NCBI RefSeq assembly: GCF_000423585.1
Contig: NZ_AUIG01000020.1
Span: 1 to 64,000, forward strand
From: Salinimicrobium xinjiangense DSM 19287
GTDB lineage: Bacteria; Bacteroidota; Bacteroidia; Flavobacteriales; Flavobacteriaceae
Reading direction: 5' to 3'
Length of the DNA: 64,000 nt
Positions 1,791 to 61,532 of this stretch are shown here, in pieces (positions within the stretch are counted from its first letter, which is position 1; each line of letters begins with the position of its first letter). The position numbers and the translations under genes are program-made. The notes under the pieces are model-generated. The model saw nothing but the letters and a program-made list of their open reading frames with translations. It was not told the DNA's origin and made no database searches.

Positions 1791-2752
1791 TACTTCTTCG
1801 GTTTATATTTTGATTTTTTAAAAATCGTTTCTGCATCTTCATTTATCATTTCTTCTACAGAAACATTGTTCTTTTCCATGTATTGTCTAACGATCTGCCA
1901 GCCAATATACTGCCCCAGTCTCGGCGGAGCCTCAGCATCAAGTTCAAGAAAGAATTTTGAAAAAGGTGCGGGATACAGAAATCGCGTTTGCAGCTGGGAA
2001 TCGGAGGAGTACAAAAGCTCCCGCTCCACAAAATACCGCCATATCTGCTCTTCGTTAGCATTCGCCCATTCCAGTTCTTCCGGCAGGTATGTCATCTTTT
2101 CAGCATCACTCTTAAAAGGAATAAGCAGGTCTTTGAGATAAAGGATCTTTCCGTAGTAGATCATATGAGCGAGAAAGCTTCGGGAAGCAGGACCGGAAAC
2201 AAATGTCCGGGCAAAAGCCTCACTAACGTCAACTACGATCTGTTCCTTGCGCATTTCCTTCTTAATATAATCCTGAACTCCCATATACAAGGGATGATCC
2301 ATCCCCAGGTAAGTATCGAGTGCGACTAACAGCAGCGAATCGGCCCACACCACCTGGTTGCGATAATCAACATCTGATGTCAGCGTAACAACCTTCGGAA
2401 TGGTTTCCTCGGGGAAGTAATATTTTATATGCTGAAAAAGCCTTTCCAGCTCCTCCTCAGTTTCCTCCAGATCTGGAAATTGGGAAGCGACAGCCTCATT
2501 CAATTCAAGCTGAATGCTGTCATTCATTTTCTCTACCCAAAGTATGTCGGGATACTGTCTTGGAAACAGAAATGAAAATTCTCTTTTTAGAGCCGGCAGA
2601 CTGTCGGCCGTCGCATTTGCAAATCTCTGATCAAACCTTTCTACCTGCAAATCAATTCCAATCCTGGAGATCTCTTCCTCTCTTCTGTCATTATCTGCAC
2701 AGGATAGAAGAAGAAGAAAAACAAAACAGCAGGCAAAGAGATACTTAAGCAT
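1790..2752 (-). CDS. gldB: Gliding motility lipoprotein GldB
   Basis: A 320-residue lipoprotein with a hydrophobic signal ending in the lipobox LLLSC at about residue 18. The body is a GldB domain with the characteristic VERFDQRF segment and the DYRNQVVWADSLLLVALDTYLG region. GldB is required for gliding in Flavobacterium johnsoniae. It belongs to a family with a DUF2268-like zincin fold, but the sequence shows no HExxH, so peptidase activity is not claimed. It is first in the gldB-gldC operon and is transcribed divergently from nadE, 105 bp away. Confidence 0.92.
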   Translation of the reverse strand: MLKYLFACCFVFLLLLSCADNDRREEEISRIGIDLQVERFDQRFANATADSLPALKREFSFLFPRQYPDILWVEKMNDSIQLELNEAVASQFPDLEETEEELERLFQHIKYYFPEETIPKVVTLTSDVDYRNQVVWADSLLLVALDTYLGMDHPLYMGVQDYIKKEMRKEQIVVDVSEAFARTFVSGPASRSFLAHMIYYGKILYLKDLLIPFKSDAEKMTYLPEELEWANANEEQIWRYFVERELLYSSDSQLQTRFLYPAPFSKFFLELDAEAPPRLGQYIGWQIVRQYMEKNNVSVEEMINEDAETIFKKSKYKPKK

Positions 2753-55360: not shown

Positions 55361-55786
55361 TTATTTCTTTACCGGCGAACCGTTCAGGATGATCTCTGTG
55401 GTGATCTCGGCCGTTTTCTCCAGCATTTTAGCCACCGAACAATATTTTTCCAGGGAAAGATCTACTGCTCTTATGGCCTTATTTTCCGGAATATCGCCGT
55501 CAATATAGATCTTCAGGTGAATACCCGTAAAGACATTTGGCACCGCGCCATCCACTCTAAAGCCTTCCACATCCATCTCCAGATTTGTCATCTCCAGCTG
55601 CTGTTTTTTCAGGATCATGACGATGTCAATCCCGCTGCAACCGGCGATGCCCATAAGAAGCAATTCCATAGGGCTTGCCCCCTGCGGATTCGGTTCACTC
55701 TTGTTGTCGAGTTGAATTACGTTGCCGCGTTCGTTGACAGTTTCAAAATGATAATTGTCGTTCAGCCTTTTAAGATGGATCTTCAT
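55361..55786 (-). CDS. OsmC/Ohr family protein
   Basis: A 141-residue protein of the OsmC peroxidase fold. The two redox Cys are in GIAGCSGIDIV and EKYCSVAKML. These proteins reduce organic or fatty-acid hydroperoxides. Its start abuts the stop of the homoserine dehydrogenase gene, so it is probably part of the methionine operon; a link to cysteine or sulfur redox state is possible but unproven. Confidence 0.87.
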   Translation of the reverse strand: MKIHLKRLNDNYHFETVNERGNVIQLDNKSEPNPQGASPMELLLMGIAGCSGIDIVMILKKQQLEMTNLEMDVEGFRVDGAVPNVFTGIHLKIYIDGDIPENKAIRAVDLSLEKYCSVAKMLEKTAEITTEIILNGSPVKK

Positions 55787-56859
55787 TAGGGTAATTTTTC
55801 CGCTAATTTAATTAAATCTGTAAGAACTCCGCGTGCCGTCACCGCAGCTCCTGCCCCTGCTCCTTTTATCACCAAAGGCTGCTCTCCATAGGACTCCGTG
55901 AAGATCTCAAAAGAGGAATCAGCGTTCTGAAGACTTCCAAGGGCCGAGGTTCTTTTCTCAGTCACCAGTTTTACGTCCAGTATTCCAGTTTGCAGGTCCA
56001 GCTCCCCCACATGTCTAATGACCTCATCCTGTTTCAGCTCTTTTTTTAGCTTTAGAAAAAGCGGATCAAGATCTTTTTTATTTTTCTGAAAATTCTTCAG
56101 GCTTGATTGCCCGTTGAGATGCGACGGCACGAGATCCTGAATGGTGATCTCCTCAAATTCCTTTTCCAGCCCCAGTTCCCTGCCAAGGATCAACAGCTTT
56201 CTGGCCACATCTTTTCCTGAAAGGTCCACCCGGGGATCGGGTTCGGTGAAACCTTTAATTCCGGCTTCGGAAAGTATTTCAGAAAAAGCCCTTTCTTCGG
56301 CACAATAGGTATTGAAAATATAACTGAGGGAGCCCGAAAACACCCCTCTTACCTTTGTCACCCGCTCGTTGGAACGATGGAAGTTTCGCAGTGTTTCCAC
56401 TATGGGCAGTCCCGCGCCTACATTGGTCTCATAGAAGAAAAATTTATTGTGCTCCTGAAGCTTTTTCCGAAGCTCCAGATAGAATTGAGAGGAGCGGGTG
56501 TTGGCCACCTTGTTTGCTGCGACAATATGAAAGCCGGCTTCGATAAGGCTAAAATAATTATTCACAAAATCCTCACTGGCCGTGGCATCTACCGCAATGA
56601 GATTTTCGTATCCCTGTTGCTGAACATATTCGAGAACATCCCGGAGTTTGTAAGGAAATCCAAAATTCACCAGATCGGCTTCCCACGAAGGCTGCTGATT
56701 CTCCTTCTGGAAAAAGGCGGTGGTGGAATTCGCGATCACCGGGAGATTAAGCTCCACTCCTTCCCGTTTCCGAAGCTGTTCACGGGCCTGTAATAGCTGG
56801 TTTATAAGCTTGCTGCCTACATTACCGGTTCCAAAGAGTACTATATTGATCTTTTTCAT
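55786..56859 (-). CDS. hom: Homoserine dehydrogenase (ThrA C-terminal type, no kinase)
   Basis: A 357-residue enzyme that reduces aspartate semialdehyde to homoserine. The Rossmann motif is LFGTGNVGSKLI. VAANKVANT, GAGLPIVETLRNF and RGVFSGSLSYIFNTY are active-site segments, with GFTEPDPRVDLSGKDVARKLLILGRE at the homoserine site. It corresponds to the C-terminal half of bifunctional aspartokinase/homoserine dehydrogenase, without the kinase or ACT domains. Its start overlaps the metX gene by 38 bp. In this operon it would supply homoserine directly to MetX. Confidence 0.93.
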   Translation of the reverse strand: MKKINIVLFGTGNVGSKLINQLLQAREQLRKREGVELNLPVIANSTTAFFQKENQQPSWEADLVNFGFPYKLRDVLEYVQQQGYENLIAVDATASEDFVNNYFSLIEAGFHIVAANKVANTRSSQFYLELRKKLQEHNKFFFYETNVGAGLPIVETLRNFHRSNERVTKVRGVFSGSLSYIFNTYCAEERAFSEILSEAGIKGFTEPDPRVDLSGKDVARKLLILGRELGLEKEFEEITIQDLVPSHLNGQSSLKNFQKNKKDLDPLFLKLKKELKQDEVIRHVGELDLQTGILDVKLVTEKRTSALGSLQNADSSFEIFTESYGEQPLVIKGAGAGAAVTARGVLTDLIKLAEKLP

Positions 56860-57832
56860 TTTCGTTAGTTTCTAAATTAAAGATTGGCGCTAAAAATTTT
56901 GTTAGCTGCTCATATTCTATGAGAAAGGCGTCGTGCCCGTGAATCGATTTGACCTCATAATAATTCACATTTTGCTTTACTGCGGAAAGCTCCCGGTAAG
57001 TTTCCCTGATCTCCCCCGGAAGAAAGAACAGGTCGCTGTCAACTCCTATCAGGTGAATATTCCCGCTGACCTTTGCTGCAGCAACTGAAGCTTCTTCCTC
57101 CCCGCAGATATCTATGGTGGTGAGCAGGTGGTTCATCAACTTATAGGCTGCAAGTTCAAAGCGGCTTTCCAGCCTCCGGCCGTGATAGCTCAGCCAGTTC
57201 GCCACCTCAAACTGCAGGTTTGATTCATTCCTTTTTCTGCGGAACTTGGCTGAAAAGGATGCCGGGGTGCGATAAAAGGTCATGGCGTGCATTCGGGCGT
57301 CGTGCAGCGGATCTGATGAATTATTCAGGATCTGGTCCTGCACCTTGCACTGCCCCAGTACCCAATCGGTCGCCTTTAGATCGGTCGCGATAGGGATCAG
57401 GTTTTGGATAAGGTCAGGCTTTAGAGAAGCCAGATGCCATACCAAAGCTCCGCCTATAGATCCGCCGATAGCCGCAAAGAGACTGTTGATCTTCAATTCC
57501 TCCAATACAAGAGCAAAAATTCGGGCGATATCATCAAGGGTGAATTCGGAGTAGTTATGCAGCAGATGCTCCTTTTTTCCGCCGGCTCCATTTCCCGGAA
57601 CGTTGATAGAAAGAATGGTAAATTTATCTGTGTCTATACATTTTTCCGGACCCACAAGTTCCTTCCACCAACCGTTTTCTCCTGTGACATCAGCATTTCC
57701 GGTAAGGGCGTGGTTCACCAGCACAACCGGAGCCGTTCCGGGTTCCCTCCCAAAAAACCGGAAAGAAACACGGAACTGCTGCAGGGTTCCGGCAGAATTT
57801 TTAAAATCGGGAATAATTATTTCCTGTAACAT
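56822..57832 (-). CDS. metX: Homoserine O-acetyltransferase
   Basis: A 336-residue alpha/beta-hydrolase-fold enzyme that acetylates homoserine. LVNHALTGNADV forms the oxyanion region, GGSIGGALVWHLA holds the Ser nucleophile, and GVDSDLFFLP and IHGHDAFLIE supply Asp and His. It is second in the methionine operon, between the sulfhydrylase and homoserine dehydrogenase. Confidence 0.93.
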   Translation of the reverse strand: MLQEIIIPDFKNSAGTLQQFRVSFRFFGREPGTAPVVLVNHALTGNADVTGENGWWKELVGPEKCIDTDKFTILSINVPGNGAGGKKEHLLHNYSEFTLDDIARIFALVLEELKINSLFAAIGGSIGGALVWHLASLKPDLIQNLIPIATDLKATDWVLGQCKVQDQILNNSSDPLHDARMHAMTFYRTPASFSAKFRRKRNESNLQFEVANWLSYHGRRLESRFELAAYKLMNHLLTTIDICGEEEASVAAAKVSGNIHLIGVDSDLFFLPGEIRETYRELSAVKQNVNYYEVKSIHGHDAFLIEYEQLTKFLAPIFNLETNENEKDQYSTLWNR

Positions 57833-57885: not shown

Positions 57886-59190
57886 TTAAGCTGTTTTAAT
57901 TGCATTTTTGACAGGTATTTGTGCAAGTGCCTGCTCCAGGTCGGCTTTAAGATCTTCCACGTCTTCCAGTCCAACAGAAAGTCTCACAAGATCCTTGGTC
58001 ACTCCGGTGGATTCCTGCTGCTCATCATTTAGTTGCTGATGTGTGGTACTTGCAGGGTGGATGATAAGGGATTTTGTATCTCCAATATTCGCGAGCAGGG
58101 AAAAAAGTTTTGTTTCATCTACTAAAACTTTTGCCGCTTCATAGCCTCCTTTCACACCAAAAGTGACCACTCCGCTTTGGCCTTTTGGAAGGTATCTTTG
58201 CGCCAGTTCATAATAAGGACTGCTCTCCAATCCCGGATAATTCACCCAGCTAACCTCTTCTTTCTGCTGCAGCCATTTCGCCAGGGCCAAAGCATTTTCA
58301 CTGTGCTTTTTGATCCTTATCTCCAGCGTCTCCAGTCCCTGTAGGATCTGAAATGCGTTGAACGGACTAAGTGCCGCGCCAAGGTCGCGCAGACCTTCGA
58401 TCCTGACCTTAGCAATAAAAGCTGCTTCCTTCAGGACGTCGTGGTAAACGAGCCCGTGGTAACCGGGAGAAGGTTCTGTGAATTCAGGGAATTTGCCGTT
58501 GCTCCAGTCGAATTTTCCGGCGTCGATGATTACTCCGCCGAGAGAAGTTCCGTTGCCGGCGATGTATTTGGTAAGGGAATGGATGACCAGGTCGGCCCCA
58601 TGCTCAATAGGCTTCACCAAAGCAGAAGTCGCGACAGTATTGTCTACTATGAAAGGAACTTTGTGCTCTTTAGCCACTTTGGAAATAGCCTCCAGATCCA
58701 GCACATCCAGCTTTGGATTCCCCAGAGATTCCACGAAAATGGCGCGGGTGTTTTCCTTTACGGCAGCCGAGAAGTTCCCGGCGTTCTGCGGATCAACAAA
58801 GGTGGTGGTGATGCCGAGTCGAGGTAAAGTAACTCCGAGCAAATTGTAAGTTCCGCCGTAGAGGCTGCTGGAGGCGACAATGTGATCTCCGGATTTAAGC
58901 AGCGTGAGCAGCGTGGTGCTAATGGCCGCCGTTCCTGATGCTGTGACCACAGCCGCAATCCCTCCTTCAAGCGCAGCCAGCCTTTGCTCCAGCACATCGT
59001 TAGTCGGGTTGTTGAGTCGGGTATAAATAAATCCGGGTTCTGCAAGCGAAAAGAGGTTGGCAGCATGATCTGAATCTTTAAAGACGTAAGAGGTAGTCTG
59101 ATAGATAGGAACTGCTCTGGTTCCTCCGTTTGCTGTTACGTCATGCCCAGCGTGAAGGGCGTTGGTCGAAAATTTTTGTTGTGTACTCAT
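57886..59190 (-). CDS. metY: O-acetylhomoserine sulfhydrylase (aminocarboxypropyltransferase)
   Basis: A 434-residue PLP enzyme of the Cys/Met metabolism family that joins sulfide to O-acetylhomoserine to form homocysteine. The Schiff-base Lys is in HSLTKYIAGNGTSLGG. The length and the extended C-terminal insertion fit MetY rather than cystathionine synthase. It is first in the metY-metX-hom-osmC operon, preceded by two leader-peptide attenuators, the nearer ending 211 bp upstream. Confidence 0.93.
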   Translation of the reverse strand: MSTQQKFSTNALHAGHDVTANGGTRAVPIYQTTSYVFKDSDHAANLFSLAEPGFIYTRLNNPTNDVLEQRLAALEGGIAAVVTASGTAAISTTLLTLLKSGDHIVASSSLYGGTYNLLGVTLPRLGITTTFVDPQNAGNFSAAVKENTRAIFVESLGNPKLDVLDLEAISKVAKEHKVPFIVDNTVATSALVKPIEHGADLVIHSLTKYIAGNGTSLGGVIIDAGKFDWSNGKFPEFTEPSPGYHGLVYHDVLKEAAFIAKVRIEGLRDLGAALSPFNAFQILQGLETLEIRIKKHSENALALAKWLQQKEEVSWVNYPGLESSPYYELAQRYLPKGQSGVVTFGVKGGYEAAKVLVDETKLFSLLANIGDTKSLIIHPASTTHQQLNDEQQESTGVTKDLVRLSVGLEDVEDLKADLEQALAQIPVKNAIKTA

Positions 59191-59210
59191 TTTTTTAATG
59201 TTTAAGGTTT

Positions 59211-59400
59211 AAGGAATAAGGAATAATGGTTATTTGTTAATTGTTAATTGTTCATTGTTGCGGGTTGCGGGTTGAAAAGGCCACGAATTCACGTATGTTT
59301 TTAGGTCTTTTCACTTTTCTAAAATTGGAATTTGGTGCTTGAAATTTGGTGCTTAATACTTTTTTTAATCATTGCTAATTGTTAATTGCTAATTGTTTAA
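59211..59400. repeat. Simple repeats in the metY leader
   Basis: The stretch between the last attenuator and metY is made of short degenerate repeats: TTGTTAATTGTTAATTGTTC (59233-59252), GCGGGTTGCGGGTTG (59260-59274), GGAATTTGGTGCTTGAAATTTGGTGCTT (59327-59354) and GCTAATTGTTAATTGCTAATTG (59375-59396). No gene is present. They lengthen the metY 5' leader to about 590 nt in total if transcription starts near 59780. Confidence 0.7.
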
Positions 59401-59438
59401 AAAGAAAAAATCCCCCTGGCTGGCTTGCCAAAGGGATT
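59401..59438 (-). terminator. Attenuator terminator 1 (metY-proximal)
   Basis: On the minus strand AAATCCCTTTGG pairs with CCAGGGGGATTT (12 bp including two G-U pairs, 8-base loop; 59438-59427 with 59418-59407), followed by TTTTTCTT. TTTGGCAA, overlapping the first arm (59431-59424), is complementary to TTGCCAAA in leader 1 (59484-59477), forming an alternative antiterminator of 8 bp or more. Confidence 0.85.
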
Positions 59439-59462
59439 TTAGAAATTGAATATATAACTAAC

Positions 59463-59555
59463 TTAGATCCTCATTTTTTGGCAATAGCGGGGTGGGGCGC
59501 ACATCATGCACATCATACAACACATCATCATTGCTACTGCCTTGTAATTTTTCAT
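59463..59555 (-). CDS. Met/Cys leader peptide 1 (metY-proximal)
   Basis: A 30-residue open frame with 9 Met and 5 Cys. Residues 9-19 are MMMCCMMCMMC without interruption. Its stop is 24 bases before terminator 1. Codons 24-27 contain TTGCCAAA, which can pair with the first arm of that terminator. Stalling at the Met/Cys run leaves this segment free, while translation to the stop codon would bring a ribosome over it. The peptide has no signal or recognisable domain; its role is inferred from composition, position and RNA folding. Confidence 0.87.
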   Translation of the reverse strand: MKNYKAVAMMMCCMMCMMCAPPRYCQKMRI

Positions 59556-59591
59556 GTTTTTCAAATTTTGGCTTTCCGGCCTCTCGTTTTT

Positions 59592-59626
59592 ATAAGGTCT
59601 TAAAAATATCATTTTTGGCACCTTAT
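59592..59626. other. Interrupted hairpin between the two met attenuators
   Basis: ATAAGGT pairs with ACCTTAT (59592-59598 and 59620-59626), and inside it AAAAAT pairs with ATTTTT (59602-59607 and 59611-59616), with symmetrical 3-base internal loops. It lies in the leader RNA between terminator 2 and leader peptide 1. It could be a spacer structure or a third control point; it has no U-run. Confidence 0.5.
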
Positions 59627-59647
59627 TTTTTTCCTGAATTTATTGAA

Positions 59648-59680
59648 ACAAAAAAGCCGCTGCGGTGGCAGCGGCTTTTT
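59648..59680 (-). terminator. Attenuator terminator 2 (promoter-proximal)
   Basis: A perfect 13-bp stem, AAAAAGCCGCTGC with GCAGCGGCTTTTT (59651-59663 and 59668-59680), has a 4-base loop and is followed by TTTTTTG on the minus strand. CGCTGC of the first arm is complementary to GCAGCG in leader 2 (59721-59716). Confidence 0.92.
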
Positions 59681-59700
59681 GCTTTTTATCTTTTTCAGAT

Positions 59701-59769
59701 TCATGCAATAGGACGCGCTGCGGACTTGCTCCACATCATACACATCATATTACAAATTACCTGATTCAT
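59701..59769 (-). CDS. Met/Cys leader peptide 2 (promoter-proximal)
   Basis: A 22-residue open frame with Met at 1, 8, 9, 11 and 12 and Cys at 6 and 10 (CNMMCMMW, residues 6-13). Its stop codon is 20 bases before terminator 2. Codons 17-18 (GCAGCG) can pair with the terminator's first arm. The geometry repeats that of leader 1, so two attenuators act in series on one transcript. It starts about 11 bases after the predicted transcription start. Confidence 0.85.
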   Translation of the reverse strand: MNQVICNMMCMMWSKSAARPIA

Positions 59770-59787
59770 TTCTCTTTTTGTATGAAG

Positions 59788-59820
59788 CAAAGTTAACGAC
59801 AGAAAAATTTAAGGAACAAA
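59788..59820 (-). promoter_or_regulatory. Promoter of the metY operon
   Basis: On the minus strand TTTG (59820-59817), 21 bp, then TAACTTTG (59795-59788) match the Bacteroidota promoter, with a perfect -7 box. Transcription would begin near 59780, just before leader peptide 2. Confidence 0.72.
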
Positions 59821-59980: not shown

Positions 59981-60090
59981 GATGCGCTAAGGATTGAGCG
60001 GTTGTTGGAGCTCTCCCGAAGCCGGGAGGCTGAGGGAAGCGACCCGCGAAAGCCTGACGGCACGACCGGGAGGGAGTGCCGGAGCGCCCA
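59981..60090 (+). ncRNA. Structured-RNA candidate upstream of metK (Flavo-1-like, tentative)
   Basis: A GC-rich island of about 110 bases in AT-rich DNA. A closing stem GCGCT/AGCGC (59984-59988 with 60083-60087) surrounds the hairpins CTCCCG-aagc-CGGGAG (60013-60028) and CGGCAC...GTGCCG (60058-60063 with 60076-60081). Conserved-looking single-stranded blocks are AAGGATTGAGCGG near the start and GCGAAAGCCTGACGG in the middle. I recall such AAGGATTG...GCCTGACG elements as widespread in flavobacterial intergenic DNA, possibly the Flavo-1 RNA; the name is not certain. The strand is chosen from this recollection. Confidence 0.55.
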
Positions 60091-60146: not shown

Positions 60147-60272
60147 CTCCTGATAAAATCACAGGGAAAAATTTGACTGATTGCAACCCTTATAAAATGC
60201 TAAAGCAGTGAAAACTCCTCTAGCGCTTCACGTCAAATTTCTTCTGAAATAATCATTAAAAAAAGACGAAGC

Positions 60273-61532
60273 ATGCCATATTTATTTACTTCAGAAAGTG
60301 TTTCTGAAGGCCACCCCGATAAAGTTGCAGACCAGATTAGCGATACCCTTTTAGATAATTTCCTCGCCTTTGATCCCGAATCTAAAGTTGCCTGTGAAAC
60401 TCTGGTAACTACCGGACAGGTGGTACTTGCCGGAGAGGTGAAAAGCGATACTTATCTCGATGTTCAAACCATCGCCAGAGATGTGATCAACGACATTGGT
60501 TACACTAAAGGGGCGTATAAATTTAGCGGGGATTCCTGCGGAGTGATCTCCCTGATCCACGAACAATCCCAGGACATAAACCAGGGCGTGGATCGCGGCA
60601 ACAAGGAAGAACAGGGCGCCGGAGACCAGGGAATGATGTTTGGTTACGCGACCAAAGAGACCGAAAATTATATGCCGCTGGCTCTCGATATTTCTCACAA
60701 GATCCTTATTGAGCTGGCGAAACTGCGACGGGAGGATAATGAAATTAAATACCTGCGGCCGGATTCAAAAAGCCAGGTAACGATCGAATACAGCGATGAC
60801 AATGTTCCGCAGCGTATCGATGCTATTGTTGTTTCTACTCAGCATGATGAATTTGATGAGGATGATAACCGCATGCTGGAAAAGATCAAAAAGGATATCA
60901 TTGAGATCCTTATCCCACGGGTAAAGGCACAGCTTCCGGAGTATGTTCAAAAGCTGTTCAACGATCAAATCAAATACCACATCAACCCCACCGGAAAGTT
61001 CGTCATTGGCGGACCTCACGGGGACACCGGACTTACGGGTAGAAAGATCATTGTTGACACCTATGGCGGAAAAGGAGCTCACGGGGGAGGTGCATTTTCA
61101 GGAAAAGATCCTAGTAAAGTAGACAGATCTGCTGCCTATGCTGCAAGGCATATCGCCAAAAATCTTGTGGCTGCGGGAGTTGCCGACGAGGTGTTGATCC
61201 AGGTTTCCTATGCTATTGGAGTAGTAGAACCAACTTCCATCCTGATAGAAACATATGGTTCCAAAAAAGTGGATTTGAGCCACGGTGAGATTGCCAGAAA
61301 AATTCTGGAGATCTTCGATATGAGACCTGCTGCTATTGAACAAAGACTGGGTCTTAGAAGTCCGATCTATCGGGAAACTTCGGCGTATGGCCATTTTGGA
61401 AAGGAACCGCGTAAGGAAAGAAAAGTATTCGAGAGTCCGTATAACGGCAAAAAGTCTATTGAGGTTAATCTTTTTACCTGGGAAGAATTAGACTATGTGG
61501 ATAAGGTAAAGAAGGCGTTTGATATTGAGTAG
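60273..61532 (+). CDS. metK: S-adenosylmethionine synthase
   Basis: A 419-residue enzyme that makes SAM from methionine and ATP. Signatures are [13 protein letters not shown] at the N-terminus, [12 protein letters not shown] (ATP-binding) and [19 protein letters not shown] (P-loop-like). It is divergent from the metY operon, so synthesis and use of methionine share one intergenic region. It ends at a strong bidirectional terminator. Confidence 0.96.

Follow-up and report, generated by a model that had tools for sequence, protein, structure and literature searches.

A leader unit of two modules, each made up of a short open reading frame and a hairpin, is located between metK (plus strand) and metY in the stretch of 64,000 nucleotides from Salinimicrobium xinjiangense DSM 19287 that was analysed here and is referred to as the window. 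The features of the unit and the genes that follow it, all on the minus strand, are given below with the evidence for each in brackets.

59788..59820 (-): predicted promoter, TTTG, N21 and TAACTTTG, upstream of both modules (read from the sequence)
59701..59769 (-): leader 1 open reading frame, 22 codons, MNQVICNMMCMMWSKSAARPIA (sequence; alignment of 49)
59731..59754 (-): leader 1 regulatory codons 6-13 (C N M M C M M W), segment 1 (sequence, alignment)
59748..59754 (-): 5' arm TGTAATA of the protector helix, partner TATTGCA at 59704-59710 (fold and covariation)
59704..59721 (-): module 1 segment 2, codons 17-22, comprising GCAGCG (59716-59721) and TATTGCA (59704-59710) (duplex energies, covariation, fold)
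59651..59680 (-): terminator 1, segments 3 and 4, 13 bp, loop CACC, U-tract (scan and covariation)
59463..59555 (-): leader 2 open reading frame, 30 codons, MKNYKAVAMMMCCMMCMMCAPPRYCQKMRI (sequence; alignment of 37)
59499..59531 (-): leader 2 regulatory codons 9-19 (MMMCCMMCMMC) (sequence, alignment)
59477..59487 (-): module 2 segment 2, the antiterminator arm CTATTGCCAAA (covariation)
59407..59440 (-): terminator 2, 14 bp, loop of 6, U-tract (scan and covariation)
57886..59190 (-): metY, O-acetylhomoserine sulfhydrylase subfamily, first gene past the leaders (profile match)
56822..57832 (-): metX-like homoserine O-acetyltransferase (best match TIGR01392, 184.6 bits, cut-off 500)
55786..56859 (-): hom, homoserine dehydrogenase, overlapping the end of metX (Pfam, above cut-off)

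The predicted transcript runs from the promoter through leader 1, terminator 1, leader 2, terminator 2 and ~215 nt of AT-rich DNA into metY-metX-hom, the gene order given in a preliminary description of this DNA and borne out by the profile matches. The metY product is a PLP enzyme of Cys/Met metabolism whose subfamily assignment lies above the family cut-off; the MetX-like acetyltransferase scores below the NCBIfam cut-off. Coordinates, peptide and hairpin had been described correctly for the 22-codon frame with CNMMCMMW at residues 6-13 and its perfect 13-bp terminator. The 30-codon frame with MMMCCMMCMMC at residues 9-19 was likewise confirmed, and its terminator, put at 12 bp, has 14 pairs according to the scan. 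The segments said to be complementary, GCAGCG:CGCTGC in module 1 and TTGCCAAA:TTTGGCAA in module 2, are both there, as is the promoter ahead of both modules (TTTG-N21-TAACTTTG at 59820-59788), which is absent from the output of the sigma-70 scan. Segment 2 of module 1 can pair either with segment 3, as an antiterminator, or with segment 1, as a protector.

The terminator scan gave five terminator-like sites against 1.7 expected. Terminator 1 has 13 pairs and no mismatch and is a nearly symmetric hairpin, on account of which the scan shows it at full length on the plus strand only. Met and Cys account for 13 of the 29 post-start codons of leader 2, a content matched by none of 20000 dinucleotide shuffles. 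The corresponding content of leader 1 (6 of 21) was matched by 2.9% of shuffles; leader 1 is therefore not compelling alone and rests on its conservation.

On the other strand, a SAM-II riboswitch (60157-60213 (+), 56.4 bits, cut-off 44) precedes metK (60273-61532) and diverges from the leader unit, so that a single intergenic region holds a different sulfur sensor on each strand. Opposite-strand SAM-II sites were also seen beside a number of the relatives' leaders. Elsewhere in the genome, 48 matches were found to the AT-rich stretches from terminator 2 to metY (59190-59400, TTAACAATTAGCAATTAACAATT-like). A GC-rich palindromic patch, CTCCCGAAGCCGGGAG, lies in AT-rich surroundings at 59990-60090, between metK and the leader promoter.

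Relatives of the leader unit were sought in several ways. A MetY search matched 11 of 12 genomes in the genus and, at E ≤ 1e-150, 170 of 249 genomes in the family. Each of the 11 matching genomes of the genus has both modules; in G007 they are on a different contig from metY, and a transposase-like frame stands just past the tandem leader, near the contig end (L249 2143-2481 (+)), so that the leader may be severed from metY. DNA upstream of metY was read for 90 of the 170 family matches (30 loci and 60 stretches), 89 of which were readable, the region in G007 being cut by a contig end. An initial scan for terminators and for short frames in which Met/Cys codons cluster, together with reading by eye, yielded 25 copies of module 1 and 22 of module 2 (alignments A1 and A2), including named records with Salinimicrobium, Gramella or Lutibacter in their titles. 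An exact DNA pattern for MMCMM matched 11 of 249 family genomes, with leaders before met genes in two, both of the window's genus; with a wider pattern, 10 of at least 119 stretches contained a MetY, MetX, Hom or MetK match, and among the matches listed one (L075) was an unrelated MetK some 6 kb away.

Covariance models of both modules were then used, with the terminator as the sole structure written in. Module 1 was found in 36 of 397 family genomes (34 full-length at E ≤ 6.4e-7, and two weaker matches confirmed by reading); a tally of 96 at E ≤ 0.001 in the same genomes contains many bare terminators. In a phylum sample of 395 genomes, all 23 matches at E ≤ 1e-5 fell in Flavobacteriaceae under strict filters. 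In the genus denoted g127, perhaps Flavobacterium-like, module 1 was found in 26 and module 2 in 18 of 41 genomes searched (E ≤ 1e-5), and the window genome gave a single strong match per model. Weak hits of the module-1 model were mostly terminators, seen on both strands. Four hits between E = 1.9e-6 and 5.3e-6 comprised two leaders (L275 and L276) and two loci without a Met/Cys frame (L274 and L277), which were dropped before alignment and reduced 51 loci to 49; three weaker rows that were fetched (L278-L280) lacked such a frame as well. The final set comprised 49 distinct module-1 sequences (alignment A5), 37 of them followed by a module 2 (A6).

All proposed helices but one were supported by these alignments (Terminator 1: 93.9% of cells paired, 59 both-side changes versus 14.6 in shuffles; terminator 2: 95.4% and 36 versus 10.5). 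The module 1 antiterminator GCAGNG:CNCTGC is paired in 93.2% of cells, with 36 both-side changes versus 10.7, and the module 2 antiterminator CTATTGCCAAA:TTTGGCAATAG in 90.9%, with 27 versus 8.7. The module 1 protector TGTAATA:TATTGCA reaches 79.6%, with 27 both-side changes versus 10.1, while its pair types and double-change pairs do not exceed those of shuffles or slid versions. The covariation score of these five helices was matched by 0 of 500 shuffles per helix, which ignore kinship, and by no slid version. The antiterminator and protector pairs had not been written into the search models, although the sequence there was scored. The protector of module 2 was the exception: 28 to 300 of 500 shuffles matched the observed values and some slid versions scored higher.

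The first pair of the module 2 antiterminator occurs as C-G (16), A-U (6), G-C (6) and G-U (1) and is unpaired in 6 sequences. At one position in module 1, the leader base, the terminator 5' arm and the terminator 3' arm change jointly, as would be required of two exclusive helices with a common arm. Pairing in module 1 extends inward, for example ATTGTTT with AAACAAT and TTGCA with TGCAA, and its leaders fold on themselves more stably than codon shuffles (mean z of -2.9, 35 of 49 under -2; module 2, mean -0.6). In 25 module-1 copies the cognate antiterminator duplexes averaged -16.9 kcal/mol and non-cognate ones -13.3, the latter being -16.7 within the same terminator class and -11.4 between classes. 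When the leader tail was re-coded synonymously, the cognate pairing ranked in the best 5% for 13 of the 25 copies. For the other 12, more than 5% of re-codings paired equally or better, the pairing being partly dictated by the peptide sequence. An antiterminator between the frame end and the 5' arm of the terminator, exclusive with the terminator, is supported by covariation in both modules.

The distances within module 1 are nearly constant. From the last Met/Cys codon (counted when more than 8 nt ahead of segment 2) to segment 2 there are 12-18 nt in 49 of 49 copies, namely 12, 15 or 18 nt in 45 (exactly 15 in 35) and 14 nt in four; segment 2 starts 18 nt before the stop codon in 39 of 49. 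Assuming that the ribosome covers some 12 nt downstream and 18 nt upstream of the A-site codon, a ribosome stalled on these codons would expose segment 2 and a terminating ribosome would cover it, so that in module 1 the spacing suits both. Folding of the nascent RNA of the window's module 1 with the footprint blocked gave the antiterminator for a stall at codon 12 and none with the ribosome at the stop codon. The proposal that a stalled ribosome leaves the complementary segment free in both modules is supported for module 1 by spacing and nascent fold. It is not supported by the fold of the window's module 2 with a stalled ribosome, where segment 2 pairs with upstream RNA and no antiterminator forms. 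A further point against is that the complete module-1 RNA with a stalled ribosome has the terminator as its minimum-energy fold; antitermination would therefore have to be kinetic, the antiterminator forming first.

The covariation and the spacing also bear on a rival explanation, namely that the frames are chance occurrences and the hairpins ordinary terminators that shield metY from upstream transcription. Each hairpin is terminator-like by itself, the first one is close to symmetric, and the Met/Cys enrichment of leader 1 in the window is mild. The antiterminator and protector covary within the frames, the spacing is almost fixed and a promoter motif stands just before leader 1, which makes this explanation highly improbable. 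The preliminary description had itself named unconserved frames with freely varying hairpins as the outcome that would speak against attenuation; instead, frames, codons, spacing and alternative helices are conserved, with compensatory changes. Its interpretation as leader-peptide attenuation is supported by this comparison of sequences.

Each module has a short frame with clustered codons of amino acids made by the genes downstream. Internal Met codons occur in 49 of 49 first and 37 of 37 second leaders. Met and Cys together make up 27% of the residues of first and 33% of second leaders (start Met omitted, last 36 residues at most); four second leaders are poor in both (L190, L054, L259 and L237) and count against the proposal. 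The tail of the frame is conserved as RNA and not as peptide, since GCAGNG is decoded as Ser-Ala-Ala/Glu or Pro-Gln-Arg/Gly depending on the species, and the post-cluster frame of the window's leader 2 differs from those of L024 and L027 with TATTGCCAAAAAATGAGGATCTAA identical in all three.

Judged from the codons and the genes, Met is very probably the main signal. For Cys as a second signal at the metY-metX-hom operon the chances appear evenly balanced. A reading of somewhat lower probability, still to be taken seriously, is that only Met (or only Cys) matters and that the other codon type is present as part of the ATG/TGY repeats that would make up segment 1 of the protector. Cys is absent from nine of 49 first and two of 37 second leaders and internal Met from none, and the codon arm doubles as paired RNA in the module 1 protector. 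On the other hand, Cys is frequent (123 of 1110 residues in leader 2, where it is the second commonest residue, and 87 of 1097 in leader 1), TGT and TGC interchange at the same position in the 49-sequence alignment, and the Cys share climbs before cysteine operons, as described below. The earlier claim that the leader senses Met and Cys thus stands in part, with Met as the constant and Cys as the accessory component.

In the genus g127, modules also precede metX-like genes, a gene for a cystathionine-type PLP enzyme, OsmC-like genes, cysteine operons, a TonB-dependent receptor gene, and a hom-like gene followed by metH-like sequence; CysH, CysE, CysK, CysI, OsmC, the PLP enzyme and the receptor were tested on one example each and the other families named by eye. 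In a single genome (G817, L354), the PLP enzyme gene is preceded by a Met leader that lacks Cys, metX by a Met-rich leader, and cysH with other sulfate-assimilation genes by two leaders rich in Cys, one of which contains runs of CCC and CC. Of 121 g127 genomes, 68 have a CysH match, and leaders occur in 7 of the 30 cysH loci read; in three of these seven the terminator arms differ from those in the met modules. Three more cysH loci (L373, L384 and L390), each with a short frame and four Met/Cys but no terminator by the scan, were left uncounted.

The mean Cys share of Met + Cys codons was 0.54 in the eight first leaders before cysteine operons (seven cysH, one cysE) compared to 0.29 in the 49 (Mann-Whitney p = 0.0002, kinship uncorrected), and p was 0.001 against 28 other g127 first leaders, again uncorrected for kinship. 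For second leaders it was 0.51 (n=5) before cysteine operons compared to 0.32 (n=37), with p = 0.005, kinship uncorrected. The sample of cysteine-operon leaders is small and some are close copies. In all five genomes where both kinds were compared, the share was higher before the cysteine operon.

A TonB-dependent receptor gene follows module 1 in 11 g127 loci (L264, L288, L290, L291, L292, L295, L297, L317, L320, L321 and L326; family tested in L264 only, the others by resemblance), and the receptor is possibly an importer under the same switch. OsmC-like genes occur within the methionine clusters of L359 and L299; in L359 the gene is flanked by one pair of terminators and by a second tandem leader, which precedes a metX-like gene. 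Copper can be bound by Met/Cys clusters. One might suppose that the nascent Met/Cys peptide senses a signal such as copper or oxidants with its thiols and thioethers and that the ribosome is arrested as a result, and the receptor genes after some modules would fit. Most copies read, however, precede Met or Cys synthesis genes, the peptide tails vary in frame and length with the RNA element constant, and leaders with Met but no Cys occur; sensing of this kind is considered very unlikely.

The site before metY is commonly held by a different regulator. Among the 89 readable family regions, 12 had leaders, 73 a SAM riboswitch and four neither. The 77 leaderless regions comprise 71 with SAM-I, two with SAM-II on the metY strand (L212 and L230) and four with neither (L171, L211, L219 and L224); L171 was scanned twice and counted once, and L228 was excluded from the leaderless count as a leader was found there (L263). 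SAM-I before metY was detected in none of the 11 leader regions scanned with Rfam (of the 12 in the census) and in none of 26 leader-bearing metY loci scanned (25 distinct ones and the window). The leader unit occupies the spot of SAM-I in most other Flavobacteriaceae examined. Three leader-bearing loci (L084, L163 and L168) have a SAM-I located after metY, and in L248 (1276-1654 (-)) a metX-like gene is preceded by a Met leader module with SAM-I immediately after it, so that sensors of two different kinds are in series. The Flavo-1 RNA motif, of unknown function, was seen near metY/metK in L084 (5488-5578 (+)) and L137 (1341-1418 (+)).

A tree of 70 MetY proteins was built by a quick method with SH-aLRT as the sole support measure, and 18 of its 67 inner branches are starred. 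The leader and SAM labels change seven times in the best tree and six times without the "neither" row; when starred branches alone are relied on, the minimum is two changes.

The frequency of SAM-I at this site in the relatives examined might favour a protein or small ligand that binds the leader RNA, the codons being incidental. The Rfam matches in the leader are all below cut-off, and Met codons are retained in every first and second leader aligned; such binding therefore appears very doubtful. Rfam 15 gave no gathering-score match in the window leader, SAM, T-box and other leader families included, and BTnc231 and BSnc120 scored far below their cut-offs.

The two modules lie below one promoter, with none between them by a motif search over short stretches. 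Of the 49 copies, 37 have TAnnTTTG in the 45 nt before leader 1, compared to 0.9 expected from shuffles, and 33 of these 37 have TTG 14-27 nt further upstream, a combination which we take to be the Bacteroidota promoter type. No such motif occurs between the modules in any of the 37 pairs, where the stretch between hits has a median of 21 nt and is thus short in many. The tandem, as first described, is real in the window and common among relatives (37 of 49), but not universal. The 12 first modules with no recognised module 2 count against it; they may represent a single gate, an unrecognised second gate or a second gate outside the DNA read, as in L301, where module 1 is separated from module 2 by a TonB receptor gene and metY follows the receptor. 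L303 has a third terminator-like hairpin in series past two modules, before a hom-like gene (2139-2168 (-)), for which no Met/Cys frame was seen. The two covariance models match each other's modules weakly, which suggests that the modules may derive from an old duplication.

Taking anatomy, conservation, covariation, spacing and gene context together, we infer translation, stalling, read-through and the signal as follows: the unit very probably represents two ribosome-mediated transcription attenuators in series. In each module, a ribosome would trail RNA polymerase through the short Met/Cys-rich frame. With ample charged Met-tRNA, and secondarily Cys-tRNA, it would reach the stop codon and cover the frame end, and the terminator would form. 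A stall on the Met/Cys codons would expose the frame end, which could then form the antiterminator with the terminator's 5' arm, and the polymerase would continue. If module 1 were untranslated, the protector would bind the Met/Cys-codon arm to segment 2, presumably also leading to termination. The polymerase would have to pass both gates before metY-metX-hom, and read-through should therefore multiply. The effect of Met starvation on initiation could blunt a Met-codon sensor, which counts against this mechanism.

For the Flavobacteriaceae at large, the pattern is probably that of a duplicable, codon-programmed module for sulfur amino-acid genes, exchanged with SAM-I at metY more than once, stacked in twos so that the gates multiply into a steep one, and shifted from Met to Cys by codon swaps at cysteine operons, so that a single genome may hold a small Met/Cys leader-peptide regulon. 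The family lives in the sea, soil and fresh water. A Met leader-peptide sensor is odd because Met starvation also affects initiation, and it raises the question of how such a sensor could work. In dozens of related species the same gene is under either a SAM metabolite sensor or a putative Met/Cys tRNA-charging sensor, which allows the two to be compared in nature; one gate and two can also be compared across related species, and the value of each design is directly testable. There is also a gain for annotation, as neither leader peptide has an NCBIfam match and the leader RNA has no gathering-score match in Rfam 15.

Ribosome-mediated attenuators are known for amino-acid operons of the trp, his, thr, phe and ilv type, and methionine genes are usually cited as being under SAM riboswitches, T-boxes or repressors. 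The unit described here shares with the classical attenuators the leader frame rich in product codons, the alternatives of antiterminator and terminator, with a protector supported in module 1, and the same geometry; it differs in its Met with Cys codons, its host in a Bacteroidota family and the series of two like units. Rfam Phe_leader and Thr_leader scored 24.7 and 24.2 bits on the window against cut-offs of 55. SAM-I (RF00162) holds the same position in most leaderless relatives but is a ligand-binding RNA.

The published cases compared below are described as far as the available portions of the cited papers go. The Salmonella mgtCBR leader, called a "singular example" of tandem attenuators for different signals, ATP and proline (PMC3641672), likewise has two leader frames in one leader RNA; its stem-loops are said by the authors not to resemble intrinsic terminators, whereas here both modules have like codons and intrinsic terminators. 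Actinobacterial cys operons share the Cys-codon leader ahead of sulfur genes (Canestrari et al. 2020, cited in PMC13236596); in the available part of PMC1262725, these cysteine leader peptides are described with no conserved terminator hairpin, and the methionine operons of Actinobacteria with no conserved RNA structure upstream. The uORFC-8-2 motif before cysS in Rhodobacterales, with two Cys codons and a terminator stem, is a single unit at a tRNA synthetase gene in Alphaproteobacteria (PMC8632094). The nearest by name, the Staphylococcus aureus met leader, is a T-box (PMC3771891). For Flavobacterium psychrophilum, a member of the same family, "strong clues" were reported that leader peptides attenuate amino-acid operons (PMC9723704); "methionine" is absent from the main text of that paper, and with its Table S7 outside the comparison an overlap is possible.

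Neither a Met-codon leader peptide nor a like-with-like tandem attenuator for methionine was found in the literature searched, outside which most subscription papers lie. An earlier sighting is possible; the class of mechanism is a known one, and its use for methionine in a tandem of like units is, by the literature searched, new.
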